Source: a virus
Virus record (IMG/VR): IMGVR_UViG_3300050132_000038
Coordinates: 62,001 to 126,000 of that record
Reading direction: 5' to 3' (one strand)
Length of the DNA stretch: 64,000 nucleotides
Shown: positions 12,539-62,294 of the stretch, piece after piece
Numbering within the stretch: position 1 is the stretch's first letter
Layout: each line of letters begins with the position of its first letter
The notes under the pieces: model-generated
What the model saw: only the letters and a program-made list of their open reading frames with translations
What the model was told of the DNA's origin: nothing
The model's database searches: none
Translations under genes and position numbers: made by a program

Positions 12539-13735
12539 CTACGCACCCTTGACGCACATTACCTGCTTCAACACATGTACCACGTCTATCAGATCCTTTG
12601 AATTCTCGATCACGGTATCAATGTTCTTGTAGGCTGCTGGAATCTCATCGAGGACAGAATCATCCTTCAAGCATTCCACGCCCTCAGTTTGCCTCACCAG
12701 ATCAGCAACGGTGAAACGCCTACGAGCTTCCGTCCTGGACATCGAACGTCCCGCGCCATGCGAGCATGAGCAGTAACTCAGCTTGTTTCCCTTACCCTTA
12801 ACGATGTAAGATTTCTGGCCCATCGATCCAGGAATGATCCCTAGCTCACCTTCCTTCGCGGAGATAGCGCCCTTACGAGTGATCCACAGATTCTTCCCGA
12901 AGTGGTTCTCCTTCGTGACGTAATTGTGGTGGGTGTTAATGGCTTCCTGGGTTACAGAGAACTCGATTGGTATGTGCCGCTGTAATGCAGATATAACACT
13001 CAACATCATTACCTTGCGATTCAACAAGGCGTAGTCTTGTGCCCACCCTACAGCTTCCATGTATGCGTTGAAGTCTTCGCTGTCTTCGGGAAGGTACGCC
13101 AGATCCTCATCCGGGAGATTGATGAACCATCCTTGCATTGCCTTCTTCGCCTTCTCGATGAAGTGAGAAGCAATCATGTTGCCTATACCACGAGAACCAG
13201 AGTGGAGCATAATCCACACGTCCTGATTCTCGTCTATGCAGATTTCGATGAAGTGATTACCAGAACCAAGGGTACCTACTTGTTGTGCTGCCTTACGTGT
13301 AAGCCTATCGATTTTTCCGATCCCAGGGCTGCGTTCTTGGATAGAGGACAGTTCGGAACTATGAGTATCAGACCACTCCCTAGGAATTCGATCCTCCTTG
13401 TGTTCATAGCGACCAGTTGGTACATCCCGTTCGATCTGGTTCCGAATCTCTTTCAGGTTATCTGGTAGGTCTGAAGCTTTGAGCGACAGGCGGACAGCGT
13501 TCATGCCACACCCAAGATCTACGCCGACTGCCGCAGGGATGACTGCCTTCTCAGTTGCGATCACCGTACCGATTGTTGACCCCTTACCTGCGTGTACATC
13601 GGGCATGAGTGCCACACCGTTGTGGTGGATGAAGGGCAGACGCGCAATGTTCTTCGCCTGGTTTAACGCCGCGTCTTCAATATCGTCAGTCCACAACCTA
13701 ATCAACCTAGACCCTTCGTCAGCAATAACTTTCAT
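12539..13735 (-). CDS. rtcB: RtcB-type RNA 3'-phosphate ligase
   Basis: 398 residues from the ATG at 13735, close to E. coli RtcB (408). RtcB joins RNA 2',3'-cyclic phosphate or 3'-phosphate ends to 5'-OH ends using GTP and Mn2+. All signature residues are visible: GVDLGCGM (Asp73, Cys76), GSGNHFIE (His161), HSGSRGIG (His178), THHNYV (His270) and the guanylylated His326 in CSHGAGR. In a phage it would mend tRNAs cut by host anticodon nucleases or restore RNAs after toxin cleavage. It follows a 45-residue basic protein gene with two bases between stop and the ATG region, so the two are co-translated. Confidence 0.95.
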   Translation of the reverse strand: MKVIADEGSRLIRLWTDDIEDAALNQAKNIARLPFIHHNGVALMPDVHAGKGSTIGTVIATEKAVIPAAVGVDLGCGMNAVRLSLKASDLPDNLKEIRNQIERDVPTGRYEHKEDRIPREWSDTHSSELSSIQERSPGIGKIDRLTRKAAQQVGTLGSGNHFIEICIDENQDVWIMLHSGSRGIGNMIASHFIEKAKKAMQGWFINLPDEDLAYLPEDSEDFNAYMEAVGWAQDYALLNRKVMMLSVISALQRHIPIEFSVTQEAINTHHNYVTKENHFGKNLWITRKGAISAKEGELGIIPGSMGQKSYIVKGKGNKLSYCSCSHGAGRSMSRTEARRRFTVADLVRQTEGVECLKDDSVLDEIPAAYKNIDTVIENSKDLIDVVHVLKQVMCVKGA

Positions 13736-13736
13736 C

Positions 13737-13874
13737 TCAGTCCTCGTTACGATTCTTATGTTTGCCGTACCCTTGCTTCTGCAAGTGCTTGCGATTGGCA
13801 AACCTAGAGCATCGGTTAATCTTCAACCCATATCTTGCTACTGGGTTACGAACCGAAGTCCGTACCTTAGTCAT
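13737..13874 (-). CDS. 45-residue basic hypothetical protein
   Basis: MTKVRTSVRNPVARYGLKIN..., about one third Lys/Arg, with a strong AAGGAGTAGC ribosome site. It sits between the P-loop gene and rtcB and ends at the rtcB start. The charge suggests RNA or DNA binding; a role beside RtcB is a guess from position. Confidence 0.65.
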   Translation of the reverse strand: MTKVRTSVRNPVARYGLKINRCSRFANRKHLQKQGYGKHKNRNED

Positions 13875-14225: not shown

Positions 14226-15740
14226 TTAGACCACTGTCAGGGTTTCATTATCCTTGGCGTGTTTGAAGCTTCGATCCTTCTCGATTGCTGCCCGTGTGTC
14301 AGCCAGGTCTAACAGGATTTTCGACTTCGGCTTCTTTTGCCACGCCTGTAATTGTTTCAATACGCCTTGCTGCTCCTTCATCTTGGTATTTAGCGCCTGC
14401 TCTTCCAAACGTGTTAACTGGTCGAGCCGCAAAGCCAAGATTTGCTTCACTTGTTCGACAGTGAGTTTCAGCTTTTTCACAATGTACGCCGTAGGATCTG
14501 GTGTCTTCCGCACCGCGTAGATAACCGTATCCAACTTGTCCACTGCGAAGATCAACAGCTTGGAGTAGGCAATCGCTGCCTCCTGCTTATGCACACGATA
14601 CGCCAAACTCTTGAGTTCCAACTCGATACGCATCTTCAGCCATTGCACAATCAGCTGTGGAACAGACAAGGCCAAGAACTTGGTCTCGAACGTTGTAATG
14701 CCATCGACTGTTTGTGCTTCTCGCTTCGTTACGTTGATCTTGAACGAGCATGACTGACGAGTTGCCAGTTGCACCTTCTCCACATACTTATCGAACTGGG
14801 TAAAGTTGTATGCAGCTTTGCATTCGATGGTGAGGGTGGCTGAACCTTTAGAGTTATAGCACCGTTGGGTTTCAGGCATAGCCCTAACCTTATCAATGAA
14901 GCGTTGCAGGTTGGTACCTGGAGGCCAGTCAGAGATCACCATCTTCTTATGATCCCGGTCTACCTCAATGTCAGATTCAAACTTCACGTTCGTTTCCGAC
15001 TCCCTGAACATCTTGATCCACGCTTCCTTGTTCTCCTTGGTATTGAGAAGATGCCCGCCCCACTTGTGGGCGAACTTCAACGCTTTGGCGAAGTCTAAAG
15101 ATTGAAGCTTCTCACCTTTCAACAAACGTTCGAGTACACCGATCACTGATTCGGGAGTGAACGTTGGTAGTGAGGTAGTGATACCCACACCGATACCCTC
15201 ACCTCCGTTGATAATGACATTAGGCAACTGTGCAGGTAATGTTACTGGCTCAATATCCTTGTCGTCGTAGTTAGGCACAAATGTTGTAACATCTTTGTGG
15301 ATGTAGTCCGACAGGAAGAACGATTGACCGTACGCAGAGAGGCGCATATTCGTATAACGCATCGCAGCTGCGTCGTCGATCATGTTACCCCAGTTCCCCT
15401 TACCGTGAATGGCAGGCGTGGGGTGATTGACGATTGTAGTGATTGCACCTGCGATGGAACTATCTCCGTGAGGGTGCCACCTACCCATAACCAACCCCAC
15501 TACACGCGCTGTCTTCTCAAACGTGGAGAAGGACTCCTTAGACGCTCCCCACAGGATACGCCTCTGCACCGGCTTGAGACCGTCGTACAAGTCAGGCACT
15601 GACCGATCAAGATTAACTGCTATGGCGTACGTTGTCATGTTACGCTTACCGAAGTCGCGCAGTGCCTCGTCCTTCACATGCTTATCAGCAGCAGGTACCA
15701 GACCACCAGTAGGTGCCTTAGTTTTCTTCTTCGTTACCAT
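14226..15740 (-). CDS. type II DNA topoisomerase, GyrA/ParC-like subunit (T4 gp52 type)
   Basis: 504 residues, the short phage form lacking the C-terminal wrapping domain of host GyrA. The breakage-reunion core is clear: DGLKPVQRRILW, then GRWHPHGDSSIAGAI, and the catalytic Tyr129 next to Arg128 in AAMRYTNMRLS. GEGIGVGITTSLP follows, then the coiled-coil and tower region. It cuts and rejoins both DNA strands with the ATPase subunit encoded immediately upstream. Both subunits share a transcript, with eight bases between genes. Phage topoisomerases relieve torsion during replication. Confidence 0.95.
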   Translation of the reverse strand: MVTKKKTKAPTGGLVPAADKHVKDEALRDFGKRNMTTYAIAVNLDRSVPDLYDGLKPVQRRILWGASKESFSTFEKTARVVGLVMGRWHPHGDSSIAGAITTIVNHPTPAIHGKGNWGNMIDDAAAMRYTNMRLSAYGQSFFLSDYIHKDVTTFVPNYDDKDIEPVTLPAQLPNVIINGGEGIGVGITTSLPTFTPESVIGVLERLLKGEKLQSLDFAKALKFAHKWGGHLLNTKENKEAWIKMFRESETNVKFESDIEVDRDHKKMVISDWPPGTNLQRFIDKVRAMPETQRCYNSKGSATLTIECKAAYNFTQFDKYVEKVQLATRQSCSFKINVTKREAQTVDGITTFETKFLALSVPQLIVQWLKMRIELELKSLAYRVHKQEAAIAYSKLLIFAVDKLDTVIYAVRKTPDPTAYIVKKLKLTVEQVKQILALRLDQLTRLEEQALNTKMKEQQGVLKQLQAWQKKPKSKILLDLADTRAAIEKDRSFKHAKDNETLTVV

Positions 15741-15748
15741 TTTAGTCC

Positions 15749-18292
15749 TTACGCTGCTTTACGTTTAATGAGGGCCTTCTTAACGGCTACCACTTTCTTT
15801 ACGGGAGCTTCCTCGGCGTCATTGCCCGTAGAACTGGAAGGTAAGCCTAGCATGTCTCTTCGGTACTGAACATTATCGTCCATCAACTTTACAAAATCCA
15901 CCTTATCATCGGATTCGATAGCTTTGATACGTATCACCTTACGAGTCTCTGGATTCATTGCGAGGATCCGCATGAGATTTGCGTCTAGCTCACCCCACCC
16001 TTTAATATGATTTACAAGGACCGTGGAGGGGGCTTTGAACTTCAGCAGTTTCTTCTGCGTCTCGGATACAGTGTCTCCTGTAATCAACTGCCCTTTGTGA
16101 ACTGCATAGAACTCAGGGGCATTTGACACGTACACCATACCCTTCTTGAATAGTTCGGGTAGGTAACGGTAGAATAGGGTTAGCAGCAGACTATTGATGT
16201 GACAGTTACTGGAGACGATACCAGAAGGTAGAATGAAGTTATGATAACGCGGGACCGTCAAACAGTAAACAGGTACAGGCTCCTTCAACTTCTGAATCCG
16301 CATCTTCGACACAGGGGCAAACCCAAGGCCGGTCAGCTTGTCACAGCTCGAGGGATTGCGTGACTTGTTGGACGAGGGAAGGAATACCCGATCGCCAATC
16401 TTCAAGTCCTCTGATGCAACATACACCAGATTATCGAAGTTTGTCGGCTGAGTACGACGACCATACATTGCATTGGTGACCAAACACATCCACTTATGCG
16501 ACATATCCACTTTGTACTTGGTACCTCCGATCTCCAAGGCAACGAGCGTGTCCACATTCTTAACTAGCTCTGCTGTTGCAGGTGCCCATGTCTCTTTAGC
16601 GCCAGTCCACACCGGAACTTCGAAGATGGGAGCTGCTACAGAGTACGGGCCACCGCGGTCTACGGCAGTAAGTTCGTAAATCTCCCGCTCATACTCTGAA
16701 CCATTTATACGAACTCGAATTTTGGTGTCACGCACAAACGGGCCGTCTGGGTCCGGGTCGGCCAAGCAGATGATCTTACCGATAGTCAGCTTCGAGTAGG
16801 GATCACTTGCTTTCACGTCGTAGCCAATTGCTGCCAGAATGTTAATCACTTCCTCTGACTCTAATGCCTTGCCCTTATTATCCTTTAAGCTGTTGAGAAT
16901 TTTCCCGCGAAGTGGAAGCACCCCTTGATATGGAAAACGAGCCTCCTTGGTCGTGCCCCCGGCACTGTCTCCCTCTACTAAGAACAGCTCCCGGTCCTGC
17001 GGTTTAGTCCGACTGTCGAATGCGGCATACTTTGCGGGTAGCCCATTGCGCTTTACCGCGTTGAGCTTGCCTGCTGCCTTCTTCGACATTGTGAACTTGG
17101 TCTTCAACTCATTCATCTGCGTAGCGCGGTCTGCAATGCGCTGAGCCAATGCCTTGTTCTCTTTGAAGAACTTCGTTGTCGCAAGCGTGAGGGCCGTTTC
17201 AAAGTCCTTACCCACTCGATCGTCAGTCAGCTTTGCCTTATCCTGGGAACTGAACTGTGCCTTGTGCAACTTTGCATTCACGAGGCCCACCAAACCTTCC
17301 TTCAAGTCGGCCTCACGGAATACCGGAACCTGCTTGCCGTCCACCTTCTTCGTTTTGATGAATGGCTTCAAGCCTGCATACAGAGCACCCGTTACTGAAT
17401 CAACGTGCTTACCGCCCTGCCCGTTGTTCAAACCATTAGTGAAGCCTCGCACATCACAGCCATCATAGTTTGAGAATGCGACAACCACATCAGCAAGGCT
17501 TGAGCTGTTCTCAAACATCTGACGCTCGCCCTCAGTCTTTAGCTTCAGCATACGCTGGGCTACGTACTCCGTCGGACCCTTCTTCGACAGAAATTGTTTT
17601 GCACCCTTTGCGCTACTTATAGTGATGGAGAACCCAGGGTTGAGGTATGACATAATCTCAGCCCACTCTACCGCCATTGATGCAGGAAATGACTTGGCTG
17701 AGAAGATGGTGGAGTCAGGCTTGAAATGGATCACCGTACCAGATGTAGGGCGCTTACCATTCCACAGCTTAGGTGCTGTCTTAGCCGCAGCAACAGGGGA
17801 CGTAAGTTTACCTTTCTTGAAACCAATCGTGTGCCATTTGCCTTTGAAGAAGGTACACGCGTCGAAGAAGTCAGCCGTGGCATTCGTGCCCTTCGCGCCT
17901 ACGCCGTGCGTGCCCACTGAAATCTTGTAAGCGTCATCACGATATTTGCCTGACGTATGCAATTCCCCGAACACTGCTTGCATAGTGGACATGGTGAAAA
18001 TCTTTTCACCGCTTCCCGTAGTTGCTTCCCACTTCTTAATGCCCTGCGGAATGCCGTGTCCATTGTCCGTCACCCAGTACGAACCGTCTGAGTCAACATG
18101 GAGATGCACCGAGTCGTTACGCCCAGCCAAGTGCTCGTCCAGTCCATTGTCGAGGAGCTCTCGGGCGCAAAGCCATACCCCGGAGGCATCCACACTGCCA
18201 AGATACATAGAGGGGTTTCGGCGGATTGATTCCGGGAATCGTAATGTCTCGATGTGACTGCTATCGTACTCTGCTACCTTCTTGGTTGCCAT
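15749..18292 (-). CDS. type II DNA topoisomerase, GyrB/ParE-like ATPase subunit with intein
   Basis: 847 residues before splicing, about 668 after. The GHKL ATPase is at 1-190: ELLDNGLDEH (N box), VTDNGHGIP (G1) and SVGTHGVGAKGTNA (lid). The transducer follows, then the Toprim domain with FLVEGDSAGG at 437-446 and ICLADPDPDG at 508-517. There an intein interrupts it, and the second half resumes CHINSLLLTLFYRYL, the counterpart of GSHIRTLLLTFFYR in GyrB. Without splicing the Toprim metal site would be split, so splicing is probably needed for activity. A Lys/Ala-rich tail ends the protein. It partners the GyrA-like subunit downstream. Confidence 0.95.
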   Translation of the reverse strand: MATKKVAEYDSSHIETLRFPESIRRNPSMYLGSVDASGVWLCARELLDNGLDEHLAGRNDSVHLHVDSDGSYWVTDNGHGIPQGIKKWEATTGSGEKIFTMSTMQAVFGELHTSGKYRDDAYKISVGTHGVGAKGTNATADFFDACTFFKGKWHTIGFKKGKLTSPVAAAKTAPKLWNGKRPTSGTVIHFKPDSTIFSAKSFPASMAVEWAEIMSYLNPGFSITISSAKGAKQFLSKKGPTEYVAQRMLKLKTEGERQMFENSSSLADVVVAFSNYDGCDVRGFTNGLNNGQGGKHVDSVTGALYAGLKPFIKTKKVDGKQVPVFREADLKEGLVGLVNAKLHKAQFSSQDKAKLTDDRVGKDFETALTLATTKFFKENKALAQRIADRATQMNELKTKFTMSKKAAGKLNAVKRNGLPAKYAAFDSRTKPQDRELFLVEGDSAGGTTKEARFPYQGVLPLRGKILNSLKDNKGKALESEEVINILAAIGYDVKASDPYSKLTIGKIICLADPDPDGPFVRDTKIRVRINGSEYEREIYELTAVDRGGPYSVAAPIFEVPVWTGAKETWAPATAELVKNVDTLVALEIGGTKYKVDMSHKWMCLVTNAMYGRRTQPTNFDNLVYVASEDLKIGDRVFLPSSNKSRNPSSCDKLTGLGFAPVSKMRIQKLKEPVPVYCLTVPRYHNFILPSGIVSSNCHINSLLLTLFYRYLPELFKKGMVYVSNAPEFYAVHKGQLITGDTVSETQKKLLKFKAPSTVLVNHIKGWGELDANLMRILAMNPETRKVIRIKAIESDDKVDFVKLMDDNVQYRRDMLGLPSSSTGNDAEEAPVKKVVAVKKALIKRKAA
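16205..16741 (-). other. class-3-like mini-intein in the topoisomerase Toprim motif
   Basis: Residues 518-696 (179 aa) of the ATPase subunit. The first residue is Pro, not Cys or Ser (PFVRDTKIRVR, matching block A). Block B is DMSHKWMCLV, with Trp two after the His. Block F is PVYCLTVPRYHNFIL, with Cys where class 1 inteins have Asp. The end is GIVSSN followed by extein Cys697. The Trp/Cys pair plus a non-nucleophilic first residue is the hallmark of class 3 inteins, in which the block-F Cys starts the reaction. There is no room for a homing endonuclease, so this is a mini-intein. Deviations: Ser instead of Thr at block G position 5 and Ser instead of the penultimate His. Confidence 0.88.
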
Positions 18293-61701: not shown

Positions 61702-62294
61702 CTACTTGGTTTACTTCCGACCTTCACTTAGGTCACGAGCCTATTCTCGAATTCACCAACCGTAGGGCGCAGTGTCCGTTATCCGCAATGCGGCCTGCTA
61801 TTACTGAACACGATGAGTGGGTTATCGGAGAGCTTAACTACTACGTCAAGCCTACAGACGAACTGTACATCCTAGGTGACGTATCGTTTCACAAGAAGTG
61901 GCATTCAGGATCTCTCATTGAGTCGATCAACGGTAAGAAGCATCTAGTGTTAGGCAACCACGATCAACGTCTGGCTGACTTCTATCAAATGTCAGGACTG
62001 TTTGCTTCCGTTAGCATCCTCTCGGAGTTCAAGCTTAATAGGAAACGGGTTATCTGCTGTCACTACCCAATCGCCCAATGGAGTGCTGGCCACCACGGCT
62101 CTTGGATGTTGCATGGGCACACCCACGGAGACTTTGATTACGAGAAAGCCAACCTTGCAGATAAACGAATCTTGGACGTAGGCTTCGACAATGCCTATAG
62201 GGTACTGGGCACCCATCGCCCTTTCTCCTTTGAGGACATTACTATACTATTTGAAGATCGGGTATCGATCGAACACCACGGGAAGGCAGACTAA
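61698..62294 (+). CDS. calcineurin-like metallophosphoesterase
   Basis: 198 residues from the ATG at 61698. All motifs visible: FTSDLHLGH (I), YILGDVSFH (II), VLGNHDQRL (III), CCHYPIAQW (IV), LHGHTHGDF (V). This compact form is typical of the phage/bacterial YfcE-like and diadenosine or cyclic-nucleotide phosphoesterase group. Substrate unknown. Translational coupling to the PRTase suggests nucleotide metabolism. Confidence 0.85.
   Translation: MTTWFTSDLHLGHEPILEFTNRRAQCPLSAMRPAITEHDEWVIGELNYYVKPTDELYILGDVSFHKKWHSGSLIESINGKKHLVLGNHDQRLADFYQMSGLFASVSILSEFKLNRKRVICCHYPIAQWSAGHHGSWMLHGHTHGDFDYEKANLADKRILDVGFDNAYRVLGTHRPFSFEDITILFEDRVSIEHHGKAD

Follow-up and report, generated by a model that had tools for sequence, protein, structure and literature searches.

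The stretch of DNA analysed here, the window, comprises 64,000 nucleotides (positions 62,001 to 126,000 of IMG/VR virus record IMGVR_UViG_3300050132_000038); the whole record is 218,861 bases long, and its phage is therefore a jumbo phage. Within the window a leftwards-transcribed gene codes for a GyrB-like type IIA topoisomerase subunit, followed immediately by the gene for a GyrA-like partner (Table 1). The reading frame matches the Pfam profiles DNA_gyraseB (3e-20) and Toprim (5e-6), as well as the NCBIfam gyrB models, and is interrupted by an in-frame insert of 179 residues (precursor residues 518-696) located between ...LADPDPDG and CHINSL.... The window also includes an RtcB RNA ligase gene (12539-13801, - strand), which is intein-free with GVDLGCGM intact; RtcB inteins elsewhere sit at exactly GVDIG/C (slashes mark junctions throughout), the site that is empty in this gene.

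Table 1. Features of the topoisomerase locus, in window coordinates.
Feature	Position	Strand	Evidence
GyrB-like type IIA topoisomerase subunit gene, 847-aa precursor including the intein	15749..18292	-	translation, Pfam, NCBIfam
N-extein, 517 aa (GHKL ATPase, transducer, Toprim start up to DPDPDG)	16742..18292	-	intein-free relatives aligned
Toprim acidic motif DPDPDG, directly before the insertion	16742..16759	-	
Mini-intein with predicted HINT fold, 179 aa, Pro1 to Asn179	16205..16741	-	profiles, copies, AlphaFold2 model, Foldseek
Block A, PFVRDTKI; Pro1 (16739-16741) replaces Cys1	16718..16741	-	Pro1 in 8/8 distinct copies
Block B, GTKYKVDMSHKWMC	16484..16525	-	copy alignment, position table
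Block B residues Asp B:7; His B:10; Lys B:11; Trp B:12	16505-16507; 16496-16498; 16493-16495; 16490-16492	-	
Block F, PVYCLTVPRYHNFILP; Cys F:4 = Cys160 (16262-16264), proposed first nucleophile; His167 (16241-16243)	16226..16273	-	
Block G, SGIVSSN; Ser G:5 (16211-16213), Ser G:6 (16208-16210), Asn G:7 (16205-16207)	16205..16225	-	
+1 Cys, first C-extein residue, proposed second nucleophile	16202..16204	-	Cys at occupied sites
C-extein, 151 aa (remaining Toprim and C-terminal part)	15749..16204	-	
GyrA-like partner subunit gene, adjacent downstream, context only	14226..15740	-	Pfam DNA_topoisoIV 9e-74

The topoisomerase insert and its relatives

The insert scores 28.4 bits with the TIGR01443 intein C-terminal model (cut-off 15.6), the sole such match across the whole virus record; Pfam Intein_splicing matches as well (E=1.2e-5), yet its 25.6 bits are below the curated cut-off of 35.8. 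An AlphaFold2 model built from an eight-row alignment of intein copies has a pLDDT of 85.8 and a pTM of 0.82, and Foldseek matches it to 55 solved structures at E<=0.001. The 50 matches listed are all HINT-fold proteins (inteins, intein-like (BIL) domains and hedgehog domains), with Pho RadA ranked first and the class 3 AceL NrdHF intein among them; the DnaB class 3 structures are absent from these 50. A profile search of the PDB returned Pho RadA alone, at weak E, and the best match in a viral structure library is the topoisomerase of phage BcepSaruman. Two other accounts of the insert were considered and rejected: a chance reading frame is excluded by base shuffling, which left the insert open in 1 of 2000 trials, and an endonuclease-bearing intein is ruled out by length, the 179 residues leaving no room for that domain.

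Seven further, diverged phage copies are inserted at the identical codon, giving eight distinct inteins of 167-193 aa, with 40-61% identity to that of the window. They are found in six IMG/VR contigs (L008, L012, L013, L025, L026 and L034) and, at 45% identity, in Burkholderia phages BcepSaruman and BcepSauron, whose inteins are identical to each other and whose GenBank entries describe the genes as topoisomerases with no mention of an intein. Eight intein-free relatives (50-57% identity) join DPDPDG directly to xHI, for example DPDPDG-WHIN in L031, -HHIN in L030 and L032, and -SHIN in L039. The +1 residue is Cys at all eight occupied sites and at none of the eight empty ones (Fisher p 1.6e-4, ignoring kinship among the sequences), as expected if splicing requires Cys+1.

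We refer to these inteins, all of which begin with proline, as the Pro1 family. Within what was searched, it is confined to the GyrB-like topoisomerase of a jumbo-phage group: the 179-aa protein used as a query gave no match among viral contigs, where the copies were recovered by profile scans, the plasmids searched gave no match to the intein, and the genome contigs scanned yielded distantly similar class 1 inteins and nothing closer. Occupied and empty phages are interleaved in the extein tree with at least two changes, a pattern that fits either an ancient insertion later lost from some phages or multiple gains. The tree of the eight inteins alone is too poorly resolved for a congruence test against that of the exteins. 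No homing endonuclease is present in the family, and vertical inheritance is likely.

The gyrB genes of two contigs harbor other elements in addition to the Pro1 intein. On IMGVR_UViG_3300018414_000006, the contig of L012, gyrB is broken at EGDSAGG/SAKEAR (L027, 3977-5647 and 5827-7113) by what looks from its sequence like a naturally split class 1 intein; the N-half of about 100 aa starts CFLGNTQIRL and ends in a stop codon, and is followed by some 180 bases in which every frame contains stops and then by the C-half reading frame, MRIVNKRRIELQNPVPVYDLTVDDYHNFVLANGAVVHN. In L013 (2937-5981 of IMGVR_UViG_3300029993_000005) the second element is a class 1-type mini-intein of 148 aa in the ATPase domain at VSIG/THGIG, with Cys1 and the block F sequence EPVPVYGMTV.

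All eight copies of the Pro1 intein contain blocks A, B, F and G, the block B histidine (B:10), a C-terminal Asn and a nucleophile at +1. The insert is a mini-intein with a predicted HINT fold. Residues that serve no purpose but splicing persist in copies 40-61% identical to that of the window, and Cys+1 occurs only where the intein is present; from this we strongly infer that it splices. A dead or cleavage-only HINT domain, kept as a part of the enzyme, would account for the loss of both the residue 1 nucleophile and the penultimate His, and a proven pseudogene is known in a class 3 relative, Arsp-FB24 (PMC3196547); this reading is nonetheless very improbable given that the frame is open and all putative catalytic residues are kept across the copies, Cys+1 tracks occupancy, and the insertion comes between Toprim catalytic residues in a gene that is conserved in other respects. 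An earlier note, made from the letters of the window alone, had described, with no strand stated, a 179-residue mini-intein within DPDPDG/CHI, and the profiles, predicted fold, copies and empty sites all bear this out. Its placement at the metal-binding loop of the Toprim domain in a phage type II topoisomerase likewise stands, the proline start, Cys F:4 and Cys+1 that it read from one sequence recur in 8/8 copies, and the absence of an endonuclease domain agrees with the insert length.

Class signature and ancestry

A residue 1 that is not a nucleophile, together with Trp B:12, Cys F:4 and Thr G:5 (WCT), defines class 3 inteins, in which +1 is usually Ser or Thr (PMC5222942); in a set of 1701 such inteins, 6.1% deviate at the Trp and 4.6% at the Thr (PMC7891396). 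The class depends absolutely on its F:4 Cys (PMC7891396, PMC7664689, PMC5222942), and its structures show the G:5 hydroxyl in contact with the B:10 His (PMC7891396, PMC7664689). Class 2 inteins have Ala1, Thr B:7, Asp F:4, Ser G:6 and Cys+1 (PMC4031507), and class 1 inteins with an F:4 Cys are known and are polyphyletic (PMC3196547).

The window intein has the block B core VDMSHKWMC and the block F core VPVYCLTVPRYHNF, which includes Cys F:4. Pro1, His B:10, Lys B:11, Cys F:4, Ser G:5, Asn G:7 and Cys+1 are invariant in the eight copies. Position B:7 is Asp in five and Ser in three, B:12 is Trp in the window, L012, L013, L025 and L034 and Phe in L008, L026 and L002, G:6 is Ser in seven and Ala in one, and the block F His is kept in 7/8, with Gly in L034. 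The family therefore lacks the Cys, Ser or Thr that begins a class 1 intein, and shares the non-nucleophilic first residue and Cys F:4 of class 3. It departs from that class at G:5, where Ser is a conservative replacement for Thr in all copies, and at +1, where Cys has one published class 3 precedent, Bvi IcmO (PMC5222942). A proline start unique to this family was considered and rejected, as it also begins L062, a WCT class 3 terminase intein of Stenotrophomonas phage SOVA965 (GNGK/PISLETPIPT...MIPTHN/SPMAGG).

The class 1 relatives of the family have Thr B:7, Asp or Cys F:4 and Val G:5, in place of the Asp/Ser, Cys and Ser seen here. Residue 1 (Cys to Pro), B:7 and G:5 (Val to Ser) have thus all departed from the class 1 state toward that of class 3, with the B:12 Trp of five copies as a fourth such position. 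Cys F:4 by itself is no proof of class 3, since the related class 1 RtcB inteins L020 and L021 combine it with Cys1; it may simply have been inherited, which counts against a catalytic role. The class 3 first step is favored because B:7, F:4 and G:5 are shifted together and a G:5 hydroxyl supports the pairing of F:4 Cys with B:10 His. As judged from these residues, the family pairs a C-terminus of class 2 type with B:7, F:4 and G:5 residues of class 3 type.

The class 2-like features raise the alternative of a direct attack by Cys+1 on the Gly-Pro bond, like that of the archaeal Mja KlbA intein, with Cys F:4 only assisting in the role that Asp F:4 plays in KlbA. The non-nucleophilic residue 1, Ser G:6 (7/8) and Cys+1 (8/8) match KlbA (PMC4031507), and the occurrence of Cys F:4 in class 1 relatives with Cys at residue 1 fits this reading as well. 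However, KlbA (the sequence used agrees letter-for-letter with 2JMZ over 167 residues) begins with Ala, resides in another host protein and at B:7, F:4 and G:5 has Thr, Asp and Val (diagnostic string ATPVDVS) where the family has Asp/Ser, Cys and Ser, there is no detectable profile similarity between them (E 0.18), and in Bvi IcmO the natural Cys+1 cannot substitute for Cys F:4 (PMC5222942). We regard a direct attack by Cys+1 as somewhat unlikely.

Profile comparisons of the splicing-domain cores place the family closer to class 1. With hhalign, the family profile matches the class 1 set at E 8e-21 and the two RtcB inteins at E 4e-15. Several of the class 1 inteins were found by their similarity to the Pro1 family, which biases these values toward class 1; against class 1 inteins fetched without such similarity (two from the same topoisomerase genes, two at the same Toprim site and one other) the value is E 6e-16. 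Against eleven WCT-type class 3 inteins, real sequences fetched with a class 3 bait, it is 5e-4 locally, over 44 columns, and 0.05 globally. Mean identity is 11-19% to WCT inteins vs 22-30% to class 1 inteins, with the exception of Npu DnaE (19%), whose provisional sequence was left out of the trees. In trees built without the diagnostic columns, the family falls with the class 1 inteins and apart from the WCT clade, with support of 100/97 to 100/99.

These results bear on whether the family belongs to the monophyletic phage WCT clade as a divergent branch that exchanged Thr for Ser, and sometimes Trp for Phe, and lost the penultimate His. The same signature positions are used, Pro1 and the block F motif VPV-x-C both occur among WCT inteins (the former in L062, the latter in some), and forcing the family together with class 3 costs 2-5 log units and is not rejected (AU p 0.12-0.43). 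The weak and local profile similarity, the lower identity and the dissimilar character of blocks A and G (PFVGDT and SGIVSSN vs ALxxDTxIPTP and MIPTHN) make such descent unlikely. In sequence the family is nearer to class 1 inteins than to the WCT clade. The earlier note's "class 3-like" label fares better at F:4, G:5 and the non-Thr B:7, and less well at Cys+1 and the lost penultimate His, which are atypical of class 3 and common to class 2; the W-C-S variant that it proposed holds for Cys F:4 and Ser G:5 in 8/8 copies, and for Trp B:12 in only 5/8, the other three having Phe. A class-3-like active site is partly supported by these residues, whereas membership of class 3 is not established.

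The Toprim site itself hosts class 1 inteins elsewhere, L072 and L069, and these offer an obvious ancestor, although in the tree they show no particular grouping with the Pro1 family. From the sequence relationships, a class 1 scaffold has probably gained a class-3-type active site separately from the WCT clade. We put forward more tentatively, as quite possible, an independent and convergent origin in which a class 1 topoisomerase intein lost Cys1 and rebuilt Cys F:4, a G:5 hydroxyl, Asp/Ser B:7 and often Trp B:12. If true, this separate origin would be a second birth of class-3-type splicing, and would contradict the views that class 3 has a single origin and that no direct route leads to it from class 1; class 1 RtcB inteins with Cys F:4, Pro1 with Phe, and Pro1 with Trp would form a ladder of intermediates.

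Proposed splicing pathway and comparison with known systems

The best explanation overall, to which we assign a probability of about 0.6, is a working mini-intein on a class 1-like scaffold, with a separate origin, in which splicing would be begun by the block F Cys. Cys160, together with His82 (B:10) polarized by Ser177 (G:5), would attack the Gly-Pro bond at the N-terminal junction and yield an internal branched thioester, a class-3-type step. The N-extein would then move to Cys+1, Asn179 would cyclize with the aid of Lys B:11, as the penultimate His is absent, and the exteins would be ligated as DPDPDG-CHI, restoring the metal-binding loop that the insertion interrupts. We propose this order (Cys F:4, Cys+1, and then Lys-aided Asn cyclization) with moderate confidence from the conserved residues. 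More speculatively, Pro1 could assist by straining the scissile Gly-Pro bond. With the insertion directly after the Toprim acidic motif, splicing should be required for topoisomerase activity, and the position makes it plausible, if speculative, that splicing gates the enzyme. We found no prior report of this family in the open papers searched. The natural set of Pro1, Cys F:4 and Cys+1, and the exchange of Trp and Phe at B:12, are useful variants for intein engineering.

Among known systems, the RtcB class 1 inteins (L020 and L021; NCBIfam RtcB_rel_intein2) give the best profile similarity and have the block F sequence VYCLTVPKYHNF with Cys F:4, but differ in having Cys1, Thr B:7, Val G:5 and His G:6. 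The GyrB inteins L072 and L069 occupy the same Toprim codon position, at DxDxDG followed by C/S-HI, and are distinguished from the Pro1 family by Cys1, Asp F:4, Val G:5 and His G:6. L072 is a mini-intein with junctions DTDG/C..HN/CHI and Cys at +1; L069 far exceeds it in length and has a large central insert, junctions DVDG/C..HN/SHI and Ser at +1.

The WCT class 3 inteins of phage terminases and mycobacterial DnaB (L058-L067, 6RIX) share with the family a non-nucleophilic residue 1, Cys F:4, a G:5 hydroxyl, a non-Thr B:7 and, for the most part, Trp B:12; they differ in Thr G:5, His G:6, their mostly endonuclease-bearing architecture and other blocks A, F and G. Bvi IcmO is, like the window intein, a mini-intein with Cys F:4 and Cys+1 (PMC5222942), but is reported with the WCT signature, a distinction drawn here from its published description.

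The AceL NrdHF intein, a class 3 MCT variant, is reminiscent of the Pro1 family in several respects: it has no residue 1 nucleophile, requires the F:4 Cys, has a non-Trp residue at B:12 and a basic one at B:11, and lacks the penultimate His (PMC7891396). It has Met at B:12 and an Arg B:11 near the C-terminal junction, with neither the G:6 His nor the block F His (PMC7891396). The IMG/VR ribonucleotide reductase genes L018 and L019 contain mini-inteins with Cys1 and Cys F:4, Thr G:5, Gly G:6 and Arg B:11; these resemble AceL NrdHF but retain Cys1, and from their sequences may be dual-nucleophile intermediates. AceL NrdHF differs from the window intein, to which it is 12-13% identical in the Foldseek alignment, in being split, in residing in ribonucleotide reductase, and in its Ala1, Thr G:5, +1 Ser and missing block F His. 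Nonetheless, it lacks both the Trp and the penultimate His and yet is proven class 3, so that inteins with such deviations can still be class 3.
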